A DNA stretch of 39,604 bases from a virus. The stretch spans positions 1-39,604 of IMG/VR virus record IMGVR_UViG_3300042197_000463, one strand, 5' to 3'. Under the pieces are notes generated by a model, which was not told where the DNA came from, made no database searches, and worked only from the letters and a program-made list of their open reading frames with translations. How positions within the stretch are numbered: the stretch's first letter is position 1; each line of letters starts with the position of its first letter. A program made the translations under genes and the position numbers. Shown here piece after piece: positions 3,259 through 36,970 of this stretch.

Positions 3259-5400
3259 ATGGACTTCGCATCTCTTTCATCCGAGCTACTTGCTCGCTCG
3301 GAGTCACTTTGCCGGGAGTGGTTCCCGGCTGGCAAGCGGCGCGGCCACGAGTACGTGGTGGGCGACCTGCATGGGTCTGAGGGCGAGTCGCTCTCGATCA
3401 ATCTCAAGACTGGCGTGTGGATGGATTTCGCGTCGGGCGAGGGCGGCGGCGATCTGATCGCGCTCTACGCTGCGGTGCATCGCATCGAGCAGGGTGACGC
3501 CTATCGGCAGCTTACGAACGGACATGCTCCTGTCTGCCTGTCTCGGCCTGCGCCAGCGAAACCCGCCCAGCCTGATCTGCACATTGTGCTGCCTGTGCCA
3601 CCGGATGCGCCTGCCTGCACGCTGCGGCATCCAACCTGGGGCAAGCCTGCCGCGTCGTGGGCCTACCGAGACAAACACGGCGCGCTGCTGGGGCATGTGG
3701 CGCGCTATGACCCGCCCGAGGGCCGCAAGCAGATTGTGCCGTGGGTGTGGGCTGATGGTCGTGGGTGGGTGATGAAGCAGTTTCCAGAGTCTCGCCCGCT
3801 GTACGGGCTGGATCGGTTGACCCTGAATGCGCGGGTGCTGGTGGTCGAGGGCGAGAAGTCAGCCGATGCAGCGCAGGCCATCGTGGGCGACCGCTACGCT
3901 GTGGTGACATGGCCGGGTGGCGCGCAGGCGCTTGGGAAGGCGGATTTCAGCCCGCTGCATGGCCGAAAGGTGTTGCTGTGGCCGGATGCCGATGCGGCTG
4001 GTGTCGAGTGCATGCGCAAGCTGGCAGACAAGCTGCTGCCGCACTGCCTCGAGGTGAAGATGCTCGGCATTGATGGCTTGCCGGATGGATGGGATGCGGC
4101 GGATTCTGGATTCGACTGGCAGGATTTTCTTGCGTGGGCGCGTCCAAGGGCGGAGCTAGTGGAGGCTGCTGCTTTGGTGGCCGCGCCATCGGTGCCAGCC
4201 AAAGTCGAGAAAAAACCGGCACCGACGCCCACAGGCTTTGGTCTGTGGGATCAGCTTGGCCTTGCTTTGACCGACAAGGGCGCTCCTGTGATGAATCTGG
4301 ACAATGTCGTCCGGGCCATTGAGGGAGATCCTGACCTGAAGGGCAAGATTTGGTACGACGAGTTTCTCGATACCATCGTCACCACTTGGCAGGGCCAGCA
4401 GCGTCAGTGGAAGGATGCTGACGATGTGCTGCTGCAGCTTTACATGCAGCGTCACATCGGCCTAAACCGCATCGGCGTGCAGACCTGCCATGACGCGGCC
4501 CTTGTGGCGGCTTTTCACGACACCCGCAATGAGTGTAGAGACTGGCTATCGAGCCACACCTGGGATGGCGTGTCGCGCCTTTCCTATCTCATGTCCGAGG
4601 GCTTGGGCACCGAGGAAAATTCCTACACCGAGGCTGTGGGCCGGTGCTGGGTCATCAGCATGGTGGCGCGCGTGTTCCAGCCTGGGTGCAAGGTGGACAC
4701 TGTGCCGGTGTTGGAGGGTTCTCAGGGCGCAGGCAAATCGACCGCGCTGCGAATTCTTGGCGGGAAGTGGTTTACGGAGTGCCATGAGTCTGTGACGTCG
4801 AAGGATTTTTACGGCGTGCTGCAGGGCCACATGCTGGTCGAGATTTCCGAAATGCACTCTTTCACGCGCGCTGAGGTCGAGCGCATCAAGGGCATCATTT
4901 CCTGTCAGGTTGACCGCTACCGCAAGTCATACGGGCGCAACACCGAAGATCACCCGCGTCAGACGGTGCTGGCTTGCACCACCAACCGCGACGACTGGCA
5001 GCGCGACGACACAGGGGCGCGGCGCTTCTGGCCGGTGCGCTGCGGCGCTGTCAATCACGATTGGTTGACGCGGAATCGAGACCAGCTATTTGCGGAGGCT
5101 GTGCATCTCTACAAACAGGGCGCGCCGTGGTGGGACGTTCCTGTCGATATGCAGCAGCATGAGACGGAGGTGCGGCGCGATGTCGACTCATGGGAAAACG
5201 TGATTGGCGCATGGCTGTGGAACCAGCCCCGCCCGACAACATCCGAGATTTTGTCCGACTGCCTGAAGATCGAGGTTGGGCGGCATGACCAGATGGTTCA
5301 AAAGCGCGTTGGTCGCGTGATGCGGGTGCTTGGCTGGCGGCATGTTGTGATGAAGGCATCAAGTGGTCGCAGCTATCGGGCCTGGGTTAAGAACGAGTAG
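3259..5400 (+). CDS. Bifunctional primase-helicase (toprim plus VapE/D5-like ATPase)
   Basis: I choose the ATG at 3259 because A-G-G-G-G-A lies just upstream; a GTG at 3241 is the alternative. The 713-aa protein has an N-terminal primase-type module (residues 1-90, with G-x-x-x-D-F-x-x-G). A toprim domain follows, with V-V-E-G-E-K (195-200) and W-P-D-A-D (241-245) as metal-binding acidic motifs. The second half is a VapE/virulence-associated-E-like ATPase with Walker A E-G-S-Q-G-A-G-K-S-T at 486-495. Such proteins prime and unwind the origin in many temperate phages and phage satellites. The gene is immediately followed by the iteron region at 5395-5580, matching the rep-ori arrangement of those elements. 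Confidence 0.92.
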   Translation: MDFASLSSELLARSESLCREWFPAGKRRGHEYVVGDLHGSEGESLSINLKTGVWMDFASGEGGGDLIALYAAVHRIEQGDAYRQLTNGHAPVCLSRPAPAKPAQPDLHIVLPVPPDAPACTLRHPTWGKPAASWAYRDKHGALLGHVARYDPPEGRKQIVPWVWADGRGWVMKQFPESRPLYGLDRLTLNARVLVVEGEKSADAAQAIVGDRYAVVTWPGGAQALGKADFSPLHGRKVLLWPDADAAGVECMRKLADKLLPHCLEVKMLGIDGLPDGWDAADSGFDWQDFLAWARPRAELVEAAALVAAPSVPAKVEKKPAPTPTGFGLWDQLGLALTDKGAPVMNLDNVVRAIEGDPDLKGKIWYDEFLDTIVTTWQGQQRQWKDADDVLLQLYMQRHIGLNRIGVQTCHDAALVAAFHDTRNECRDWLSSHTWDGVSRLSYLMSEGLGTEENSYTEAVGRCWVISMVARVFQPGCKVDTVPVLEGSQGAGKSTALRILGGKWFTECHESVTSKDFYGVLQGHMLVEISEMHSFTRAEVERIKGIISCQVDRYRKSYGRNTEDHPRQTVLACTTNRDDWQRDDTGARRFWPVRCGAVNHDWLTRNRDQLFAEAVHLYKQGAPWWDVPVDMQQHETEVRRDVDSWENVIGAWLWNQPRPTTSEILSDCLKIEVGRHDQMVQKRVGRVMRVLGWRHVVMKASSGRSYRAWVKNE

Positions 5401-5580
5401 AACGTGTAGAAGCTCTACACGTACTAAGTTCTTGTTTCTATTGGGTTTCTACGCGTTCTACGGGTTCTACATGTTGTCTCTACTAATACACATGCACACG
5501 CACATGCACACACGCCAAGGGGGTTTTGCAGAAACGCGTTTTCTACGCGTAGCACGTGTAGAAACGTGTAGAACGCTTCT
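5395..5580. other. Candidate replication origin: iterons, inverted repeat and Z-DNA-prone tract
   Basis: This non-coding stretch directly 3' of the primase-helicase is packed with copies of TTCTACnnG and its complement. Direct 9-bp-spaced copies start at 5447, 5456 and 5465. The opposite orientation occurs as a perfect tandem 10-mer ACGTGTAGAA at 5554-5563 and 5564-5573, and around 5397-5411. ACGTGTAGA / TCTACACGT (5402-5410, 5414-5422) is a perfect 9-bp inverted repeat with a 3-nt loop; CTACGCGTAG (5543-5552) is a palindrome. Between the clusters lie a T-rich segment (5424-5450) and a 30-bp run of perfectly alternating purine and pyrimidine (5486-5515). The pattern resembles rep-proximal iteron origins of phage satellites; function is inferred. 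Confidence 0.65.
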
Positions 5581-33970: not shown

Positions 33971-33995
33971 ACCCGGCTTAGGCCGGGTTTTTTTT
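33971..33995 (+). terminator. Late-operon terminator overlapping the integrase end
   Basis: The 7-bp stem ACCCGGC / GCCGGGT with TTAG loop is followed by eight T residues (33988-33995). It ends the rightward late transcript. The integrase stop codon (minus strand, 33978-33980) lies in its loop, so the two genes converge on it. Confidence 0.92.
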
Positions 33996-35075
33996 CATCC
34001 TCTCGAATTGCGCCCCCGCAGTCTCTGCGGCGATGCGTGCGGCGTTTTGCTGCAGGTATGCGTAGCCTCTGGTGGTGGCGATGCTGGCGTGGCCGACGAC
34101 TTGGCCGATCTGATCCAGCGGGACGCCTGCTGACAGGCTGGTGCTGACGTAGAGTCGGCGCAGGTCGTGGATGCGCAAGTCTGCGATTCCTGCCGCGTCC
34201 AGCAGTGCGCGCCATCGCTTTGCGGGCGATACGATCTGGCAGCGGCCTTGGCCTGCAATGATGTATGGGTTGCCGACAATTCTAGGGATGCGGGCCAATG
34301 CCTCGCGGGCGGGTTGATTCAGCGGTATAGTTTTGGCCCCTGTTTTGCTGTCTGGCAGGTGGATCGCATCGACTTGGAGCCACTCCCATCTAGCGTCTGC
34401 AATCTCTCGCAAGCGGCACCCGGTGAAGAGCAGCAGTTCGACCATGCCAACGAACCAGGGCTGGGTGGAGCGCATGGCCTCGGCGGCTGCAAACAGACGA
34501 CGCACCTCGTCGGCGGACGGCACGCGGCGGCGCTTGTGCTCGCGGTAACGCTCCACTTTGACCGGGTTGTCAGATCGCCATCCCCAGCGCACAGAAAGGC
34601 TGAATGCCTTGTGAAGCAGGGCTGCGACTCGGTTGGCCCGGTATGGGGTGGATCGCATTGCGTGGTGCAGGTCGCTGATGTCTGCGGTTGTCACCTTGGC
34701 AACGTCGCGGTGGCCGAGCGCGGGCAGGATGTGGTTTTCCCACATGGATGCGTCGTCGGCGCGGCTGCGTGGCTTCTTGCGCGGGGCGTGGGCCTCGTCG
34801 TAGCGGCGGCGTAAATCGGCCACTGTGCGGCGTTCTCGGTCTGGCTTGGGGTGTCGGCCTTGGCTGACTTCCGCGAGCCACTGGAGGGCGATCTGGCGGG
34901 CCTGCGGGCGGGTGATGATGCGGGAGTCTCCGATCTTGGGGCGGTGTTCTTTTCCGTCTAGCCGGTAGTACAGGTGCCAGCTTGACCGGGTGGCGCGGTG
35001 GCGCAGTTGCAGCCCTGGCACCTTTGGGTCGTGTTCGATGCTGGGTCGCGGCTGGGTCGCGCTGTCGCGTGGCAT
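33978..35075 (-). CDS. int: Tyrosine recombinase integrase
   Basis: I favour the start at 35075 (M-P-R-D-S-A-T-Q; G-G-A-G 8 nt upstream), giving 365 aa; an in-frame start at 35117 is also open. The N-terminal arm-binding part is followed by a SAM-like core domain (about 100-190) and a catalytic domain with the family residues: G-C-R-L-R-E-I (Arg I), S-K-T-G-A (Lys), H-D-L-R-R-L (His, Arg II), G-H-A-S (His) and the nucleophile Tyr in T-T-R-G-Y. It catalyses site-specific integration and excision at tRNA-Lys. It is transcribed from the attP side toward the late-operon terminator. Confidence 0.95.
   Translation of the reverse strand: MPRDSATQPRPSIEHDPKVPGLQLRHRATRSSWHLYYRLDGKEHRPKIGDSRIITRPQARQIALQWLAEVSQGRHPKPDRERRTVADLRRRYDEAHAPRKKPRSRADDASMWENHILPALGHRDVAKVTTADISDLHHAMRSTPYRANRVAALLHKAFSLSVRWGWRSDNPVKVERYREHKRRRVPSADEVRRLFAAAEAMRSTQPWFVGMVELLLFTGCRLREIADARWEWLQVDAIHLPDSKTGAKTIPLNQPAREALARIPRIVGNPYIIAGQGRCQIVSPAKRWRALLDAAGIADLRIHDLRRLYVSTSLSAGVPLDQIGQVVGHASIATTRGYAYLQQNAARIAAETAGAQFERMKKNPA
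35041..35061. repeat. Arm-like direct repeats left of attP
   Basis: CTGGGTCGCG occurs at 35041-35050 and 35052-35061, inside the first codons of int. The 15-mer GGCTGGGTCGCGCTG at 35050-35064 reappears at 35258-35272 on the other side of attP. The repeat falls in different reading frames of the genes it overlaps, so it is likely kept as DNA, for example as integrase arm-type sites. Confidence 0.6.
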
Positions 35076-35168
35076 GCTGGAGGCTCCATGATGGTGGCGT
35101 GGCCTAAGCCATTGCATGGATTGGAGCCGATGGCAAGTTGTCAGCAGCGATGAGACGAGAGCATCAGA

Positions 35169-35213
35169 CTCTTAATCAGCGGGTCGTAGGTTCGAGTCCT
35201 ACTGCGCCCACCA
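35169..35213 (+). other. attP: attP core: 3' part of a tRNA-Lys(CTT) gene
   Basis: The 45 bp reproduce a tRNA from the anticodon loop to the CCA end. Loop CTCTTAA at 35169-35175 has anticodon CTT at 35171-35173 (Lys), T-arm GTAGG-TTCGAGT-CCTAC is at 35186-35202, the acceptor strand is 35203-35209, the discriminator 35210 and CCA 35211-35213. The 5' anticodon-stem side (35164-35168, TCAGA) pairs poorly with 35176-35180 (TCAGC), and no D-arm or acceptor 5' strand follows upstream, so this is not a complete tRNA. Integration would restore the host gene using the phage copy of its 3' half. Confidence 0.9.
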
Positions 35214-35239
35214 CGGTTTCCTTGGGTTTTTCTCGGATA

Positions 35240-35404
35240 CTAAACTGGCGGATTTTTGGCTGGGTCGCGCTGGGGTCGCGGCGGCAGGTTCTGCTGCCAT
35301 TGCTCGACTGTGCGGAACCGATGACCGTTCGCGCATTCTCGGCGGCGGGTTTCGCCTCGCGTGTCGAGCACCTGGGTTGGCGTTCCGCATTTTGGGCATT
35401 TCAT
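35240..35404 (-). CDS. Small zinc-ribbon protein
   Basis: This 54-aa minus-strand gene starts M-K-C-P-K-C-G-T-P-T and continues V-L-D-T-R, R-R-R-E-C-A-N-G-H-R-F. The C-x2-C ... C-x3-H pattern is an NrdR/Ogr-like N-terminal zinc ribbon, common as stand-alone phage proteins; it probably binds DNA or RNA as a regulator. G-G-A-G lies 6 nt upstream of the second of two adjacent ATGs (35407 or 35404). The C-terminal codons contain the right-hand arm-like repeats. It is the last gene of the leftward operon before attP. Confidence 0.82.
   Translation of the reverse strand: MKCPKCGTPTQVLDTRGETRRRECANGHRFRTVEQWQQNLPPRPQRDPAKNPPV
35258..35280. repeat. Arm-like direct repeats right of attP
   Basis: CTGGGTCGCG at 35260-35269 is followed directly by CTGGGGTCGCG at 35270-35280, the same orientation as the pair at 35041-35061. 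With that pair it brackets the tRNA core at 35169-35213, 46 bp from its right end and 107 bp from its left end. Confidence 0.6.
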
Positions 35405-36273: not shown

Positions 36274-36438
36274 TCAAGGGATTTGCATGACGATGTAGGC
36301 TGTAATGCAGGCGATCAATGCGGCGTAGATGATGCGGGTGATGATTCTGTGGCGGCGCGTGGTCGGGATTTCTGGCGGATACACGGTGTCATCCGTGTAG
36401 GGGCCGAATGCCTCCTTCATCGTGCGGGGGTATTTCAT
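36274..36438 (-). CDS. Small single-span membrane protein
   Basis: The start M-K-Y-P-R-T at 36438 gives 54 aa; an in-frame ATG at 36459 has no visible ribosome-binding site. A polar N-terminus with Y-P-P-E-I-P-T-T-R-R is followed by one transmembrane helix (I-I-Y-A-A-L-I-A-C-I-T-A-Y-I-V). The positive-inside residues lie before the helix. Function unknown. Confidence 0.65.
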   Translation of the reverse strand: MKYPRTMKEAFGPYTDDTVYPPEIPTTRRHRIITRIIYAALIACITAYIVMQIP

Positions 36439-36623
36439 TGCTTGTGTTTCCTTTCCCATTCGAGAACATCGTCAAGTCGGTACATGGCGCGCGGGCGTGG
36501 GCCGCTTCCGAGGCGGATGAACGGCGGGCCTTTGCGCTCTCGTCGCCAGTTCGAGAGCGTTTCTGGCGTGATGCCGTAGCGCTCAGCGACCTGACGCGGG
36601 TGCAGCAGGTCGGTGGTGGTCAT
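36435..36623 (-). CDS. xis: AlpA/MerR-type HTH protein, probable excisionase
   Basis: The ATG at 36623 with A-G-G-A-G 7 nt upstream gives 62 aa. The pattern L-L-H-P-R-Q-V-A-E-R-Y-G-I-T-P-E-T-L-S-N-W-R then P-P-F-I-R-L-G and Y-R-L-D-D-V-L-E-W is the HTH_17/AlpA winged-helix signature of recombination directionality factors. Placed on the same strand as, and upstream of, int, it is the best excisionase candidate; a transcriptional regulator is the alternative. Its start overlaps the upstream stop (ATGA). Confidence 0.83.
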   Translation of the reverse strand: MTTTDLLHPRQVAERYGITPETLSNWRRERKGPPFIRLGSGPRPRAMYRLDDVLEWERKHKQ

Positions 36624-36970
36624 GCGGCGGCTCCTGTGGCTTTGGCGATGGCTGCGCGGGCCAAGAATGCCAGCCGATTGATTTGGTTGTTGCTGAACGT
36701 CACTGCGCCATCTGTGCTGCATTCCTCGGTGTGGACGTATTTTGTAAATTCTTGCAGCACCTCCAACAAATCAGGCGCGGCTGCAATCAGGCGGGCGTCA
36801 GCTTCAGCATCACCCGTCGCGCCATGCCCATACGCAAAGGCGATGCAGTTGCCCCGGCTCTCTGCTGGGCCGTAATGAACGGCAACTTCCGTTCCATCTA
36901 CGCCACCCGGGTGTTTGTAGCGGCGTGTTCTCCCGACCGACCAAGGCCCCGGTGTGTGTTTTGCTTCCAT
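36620..36970 (-). CDS. Conserved phage hypothetical protein (HTPGPW family)
   Basis: This 116-aa protein starts K-H-T-P-G-P-W and later has E-A-D-A-R-L-I-A-A-A-P-D-L-L-E-V-L, the two hallmarks of a very common phage and prophage protein family of unknown function. A central G-x-x-I-A-x-A-Y-G-H-G segment is also typical. It is coupled to both neighbours by ATGA overlaps. Confidence 0.85.
   Translation of the reverse strand: MEAKHTPGPWSVGRTRRYKHPGGVDGTEVAVHYGPAESRGNCIAFAYGHGATGDAEADARLIAAAPDLLEVLQEFTKYVHTEECSTDGAVTFSNNQINRLAFLARAAIAKATGAAA

Follow-up and report, generated by a model that had tools for sequence, protein, structure and literature searches.

Are the short direct repeats that lie on both sides of a tRNA fragment in the genome of an uncultured phage the arm-type sites of its integrase, or are they a by-product of the two genes in which they are embedded? 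The repeats lie beside int, a tyrosine integrase gene of IMG/VR virus record IMGVR_UViG_3300042197_000463, whose entire 39,604 nucleotides (hereafter, the window) were analyzed. An original prediction, made from the letters of the DNA, had held that they bracket the phage attachment site (attP), that they are conserved across three reading frames and that protein coding does not explain them. From the sequence evidence given below it is highly probable that 35040-35280 is the attP of a temperate BcepC6B-like phage and that its repeats would serve as the arm-type sites bound by the integrase. The elements in question are:

35040-35061, plus strand: left (int-proximal) arm pair, the 11-mer GCTGGGTCGCG twice in tandem, within codons 5-12 of int (residues SATQPRPS)
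35167-35213, plus strand: attP common core, GACTCTTAATCAGCGGGTCGTAGGTTCGAGTCCTACTGCGCCCACCA, 47 bp that match a bacterial tRNA-Lys(CTT) gene exactly over its 3' half
35259-35280, plus strand: right (int-distal) arm pair, GCTGGGTCGCG followed by CTGGGGTCGCG, in codons 43-50 of a zinc-ribbon gene, past its conserved domain

Tandem 11-mers around a tRNA-Lys core

The decamer CTGGGTCGCG was said to occur twice on the left and, counting one near-copy, twice on the right. Exact copies do start at 35041, 35052 and 35260, and the near-copy is CTGGGGTCGCG (35270-35280), which has one G more than the decamer. Likewise, the 15-mer GGCTGGGTCGCGCTG is shared exactly by 35050-35064 and 35258-35272, and every other site in the window differs from it by at least three mismatches. 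When the copies are aligned on GGTCGCG their spacing is 11 bp on the left and right alike, and a tandem 11-mer with an 11-bp spacing describes the unit better than a decamer does: GCTGGGTCGCG starts at 35040, 35051 and 35259 and the fourth 11-mer at 35270, the single units being 35040-35050 and 35051-35061 to the left of the tRNA core and 35259-35269 and 35270-35280 to its right. The top family returned by a repeat finder consists of these same two 22-nt segments, which are 86% identical and 219 bp apart.

The 39.6 kb hold one further exact copy of the decamer (28696, minus strand), where 0.31 exact copies are expected per shuffle on both strands, and sites with one mismatch number 9 in the whole window against 6.5 expected, an ordinary total. 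It is the clustering of the copies, and not their total, that is significant. Any decamer with at least three non-overlapping copies within 240 bp arises 0.01 times per shuffled genome, and a 15-mer common to the 140-bp left and right flanks appeared in 0 of 2000 order-2 shuffles, the longest common word reaching 14. Because such clusters are so rare and the shared 15-mer is absent from all these shuffles, a chance origin of the cluster is excluded for practical purposes. The decamer is read as ATQ and RPS in int and as RDP and RPQ in the zinc-ribbon gene; the claim of conservation across reading frames thus stands only as repetition in different frames within this genome, the collections containing no close relative with which the exact decamer could be compared.

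Between the two arm pairs sits the 47-bp core. The window has no predicted complete tRNA, and the exact core has no match in other viral contigs. Among 398 sampled genomes of the phylum, one (G023) holds it exactly, inside a complete tRNA-Lys(CTT) gene, and a second holds it with one mismatch. As in a lambda-type attP, the core is therefore common to the phage and a putative host attB, the 3' half of the tRNA gene. On the 5' side of the 47 bp, the window diverges from the G023 gene within the anticodon stem, as would be expected if strand exchange occurred in or near the anticodon loop; the likely place of exchange is this loop (CTCTTAA, 35169-35175).

The integrase and the genes that carry the putative arms

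33978-35075, minus strand: int, lambda-type tyrosine integrase, 365 aa from the ATG at 35075, with PF13356, PF14659/PF22022 and PF00589
35240-35407, minus strand: NrdR-like zinc-ribbon gene, 55 aa, with the right arm pair near its 3' end

The longest open reading frame (ORF) of int begins at 35117; a good Shine-Dalgarno sequence, GGAG, lies 8 nt from the ATG at 35075. The arm DNA-binding (PF13356), SAM-like and catalytic domains all score above their curated cut-offs, and in the catalytic domain (PF00589) residues R221, H303, R306, H329 and Y338 are conserved in the alignment. PF13356 reaches 32.4 bits (cut-off 27) and is missing model positions 1-20, which correspond to the LTKR.. segment of the relatives; in the alignment, too, int is without the N-terminal LTKRxVE segment that they have, and a search for an alternative reading frame encoding the lost N-terminus found none. 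In a structure model of moderate predicted template-modelling score (pTM 0.54), the N-domain is predicted as a beta-sheet plus helix with the first decapeptide disordered. A fold search with this model gave full-length lambda integrase complexes as the top PDB matches, and the sequence matches the N-domains of the CP4-like integrases 3jtz/3ju0. The left arm pair falls mostly in the predicted disordered N-terminal tail; the zinc-ribbon domain match stops at residue 35 and the right pair encodes residues 43-50. Both arm pairs are thus outside the recognised protein domains.

Recurrence of the layout in related loci

Genomes and viral contigs yielded integrase relatives of about 28-46% identity, giving 28 non-redundant loci with the window itself included. 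Direct repeats with spacings of 6 to 30 bp were counted in the approximately 330 bp upstream of the conserved N-domain, with the expectation taken from control stretches of the same loci. Repeats spaced at 11 bp stand out among these, occurring upstream of int in 17 of the 28 loci at a match of at least 8/9 (1.96 expected) and in 10 at 9/9 (0.33 expected); the loci fetched after the 11-bp rule had been seen obey it in six cases out of seven, the exception being Aeromonas phage ST4. The repeated words vary widely between relatives (TTGGTGACAAT, TGCTTCCGTAT, ATGCTTACCTG, GCGGACACAGT), as is expected when an integrase and its site co-diverge.

The identity of the pairs across the core was compared with 500 shuffles. 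Both arms are evident in two viral contigs, with integrases 41-46% identical to that of the window: L047 (45-46%) has TTGGCACCTCGCTGGCACCA and TTGGCACCTTGCTGGCACCA across its tRNA core (19/20 identical, 0/500 shuffles), and L048 has AGACACCACTGAGACACCAC on both sides (20/20, 0/500). In Burkholderia phage BcepC6B, CTACCC pairs spaced at 12 bp flank the presumed attP (18/20, 0/500). At L049, where no core was identified, the two-sided match is weaker (16/20, reached in 1.8% of shuffles). The distance from left to right arm is about 210-230 bp in L047, L048 and L049, compared with 219 in the window. The two 11-mers on each side of the core match what is expected of a lambda-type attP, and L047, L048 and BcepC6B have this layout in common with the window. 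Several of the integrase relatives adjoin tRNA-Lys sequences; others adjoin different tRNA ends, the core being Phe-like in L048, for instance, and Thr-like in L006 (read by eye). The comparison with related integrase loci, of a kind that the original prediction had proposed as a check, thus supports it, layout and spacing recurring although the words differ.

Alternative readings of the repeats

It had been argued that protein coding does not account for the repeats, and the related loci uphold this: since a layout of the same spacing recurs while the word has diverged, neither coding nor chance suffices. A composition effect in GC-rich, Pro/Arg/Gln-coding DNA would be in keeping with the 61.5% GC of the window and with near-copies of the decamer that are not over-represented overall; set against the rarity of such clusters in shuffled genomes, the different frames in which the copies are read, and the spacing and placement kept in relatives with unrelated words, it is scarcely credible. 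We give as little credence to a purely regulatory role, in which the left pair would be an operator of int and the right pair that of a divergent region. The pair does abut or overlap the int start region in relatives, and KplE1 intS is autoregulated through its att sites (PMC2951348); yet the right pair lies far inside the 3' end of another gene, no sigma-70-like promoter was found there (a weak test), and a symmetric arrangement of pairs around a tRNA core is what recombination requires. Operator and arm functions are not exclusive and can coexist.

Sites of an excisionase, or recombination directionality factor (RDF), are likewise direct repeats one helical turn apart, and a candidate for such a protein is encoded nearby:

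36435-36722, minus strand: HTH_17 / excisionase-like gene, candidate RDF

That the repeats belong to this protein and not to the integrase is nonetheless improbable, as the relatives possess a separate class of repeats. Those spaced at 10 bp are also enriched upstream of int (13/28 loci against 0.73 expected at 8/9), and nine loci have such an array apart from the arm repeat, placed to the core side of the 11-bp pair. The excisionase sites of lambda occupy the same position, between arm and core on the core side of the arm sites, and by this analogy the 10-bp arrays, which form a second class of repeats in the family, are candidates for RDF sites. RDF sites can be spaced 10-11 bp, as for Apl of phage 186 (PMC7498355), so that spacing alone is indecisive; the 11-bp repeats are favoured as integrase sites because they are the class found again across the core. 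Core-side 10-bp arrays are seen in L040, where CTCATTCAAA occurs about five times, and in L010, L004, L006, L020 and L048; positions 35062-35166 of the window have no clear array comparable to these.

Several observations weigh against the identification of 35040-35280 as an attP with integrase arm sites. The exact arm word of the window is not conserved in the relatives, and the related Aeromonas phage ST4 (L060) has no 11-bp arm pair at the same threshold. The int ORF contains the left pair, which in the relatives examined is upstream of the int start codon or abuts it. Neither the viral contigs nor the genome collection contain a close integrase relative (best 45-46%; 37-39% within the order of G023) that would reveal purifying selection on the decamer; the sister phages nearest by tail protein (69-82%) are represented by fragments lacking int. 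Finally, the binding of the integrase to the arms is something that we infer.

The layout agrees with integrase arm sites, as originally proposed, in its tRNA core, its arm-domain integrase and the pair/core/pair arrangement recurring in relatives. If it is an attP, the N-terminal PF13356 domain would bind two tandem 11-bp sites per side (the P and P' pairs), and the central and catalytic domains the tRNA-Lys core. Bridging of arms and core would fold the attP into an intasome, which may recombine with the 3' half of the host tRNA-Lys(CTT) gene by exchange in or near the anticodon loop, the phage copy then restoring the tRNA 3' end after integration. Because the left pair is in int codons 5-12, integrase bound there could hinder its own transcription or elongation. 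A further and rather doubtful possibility is that the arms were captured inside coding sequence: the int start would have moved across the left arm, the LTKRxVE.. segment of the relatives would have been replaced by a disordered, arm-encoding tail, and the right arm would have come to encode the zinc-ribbon tail. If true, integrase binding would block within its own ORF, an autoregulatory att overlap unlike the promoter overlap.

Comparison with known attachment sites

The pair/core/pair layout is already known, and the sole departure here is the left pair within the int ORF. In the Cluster J mycobacteriophages (Omega, BAKA), pairs of imperfect direct repeats of about 10 bp (P1-P2 left, P3-P4 right) flank a 44-bp tRNA-derived core whose left end is in the anticodon loop, and arm-like sites lie at the int start codon (PMC3706429). 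The window resembles them in the flanking pairs, in the tRNA-derived core with the anticodon loop at its left end and in the arm-like sites at the int start; in Cluster J, however, attP is 3' of int, the tRNA is Leu and the word is of the TGCATAC type, whereas here attP is at the int 5' end with both pairs within coding sequence. IntS of ICEMlSymR7A has a 283-bp attP beside int with five 10-bp arm motifs, consensus TGKTGGTATC (PMC11963761). It resembles the window in this position and in the several approximately 10-bp motifs around the core, but it is an integrative and conjugative element (ICE) with five motifs, not a phage with four sites in two tandem pairs. At attL of KplE1, the tRNA-associated IntS has arm-type sites at the int promoter and is autoregulated through the att overlap, and such autoregulation is predicted for most tRNA-associated integrases (PMC2951348). 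There the sites are in the promoter and here in int codons 5-12, where autoregulation would be expected by analogy. BcepC6B (NC_005887) is a podovirus-type relative, judged by its structural proteins, whose int has the same position after the lysis genes and whose presumed attP has tandem TAGCTACCC pairs to its left and right; it differs in the 12-bp spacing, in the word and in an integrase not detectably similar (tblastn, at the cut-off used).

The window thus provides an uncultured BcepC6B-like phage with a complete, testable putative attP. Within this integrase family, arm words appear free to change as long as the 11-bp tandem spacing and the position next to int are kept, which offers a simple rule for locating arm sites, and perhaps RDF sites via the 10-bp spacing, in uncharacterised integrases. 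DNA that would serve both as arm site and as coding sequence is a small, concrete case of overlapping constraints.

Other observations

Seven tRNA-Lys(CTT)-like 3'-end copies are present in G001 (the genome of L004) and four in G004 (that of L007), several of them next to integrases; in both genomes, many elements repeatedly use one tRNA gene. ST4 has a complete tRNA-Lys gene upstream of its related integrase. At L047, a long CCGGAG/CCGTCGCCGAAGCCGTAG array directly adjoins the right arm pair (locus positions 1-170, approximately; 367-540 in the reverse complement). Locus L029, one of four viral loci with two CTGGGTCGCG copies within 4 bp, was rejected because its repeat is coding (QLATQLATQL) and no integrase is seen there.

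Elsewhere in the window, eight ACGTGTAGAA-like decamers (both strands, at most one mismatch) are found at 5393-5573, where 0.83 would be expected in the whole window. This array lies in the gap between a primase/helicase ORF and a ParB/methyltransferase ORF, and it possibly represents origin iterons or a regulatory array.
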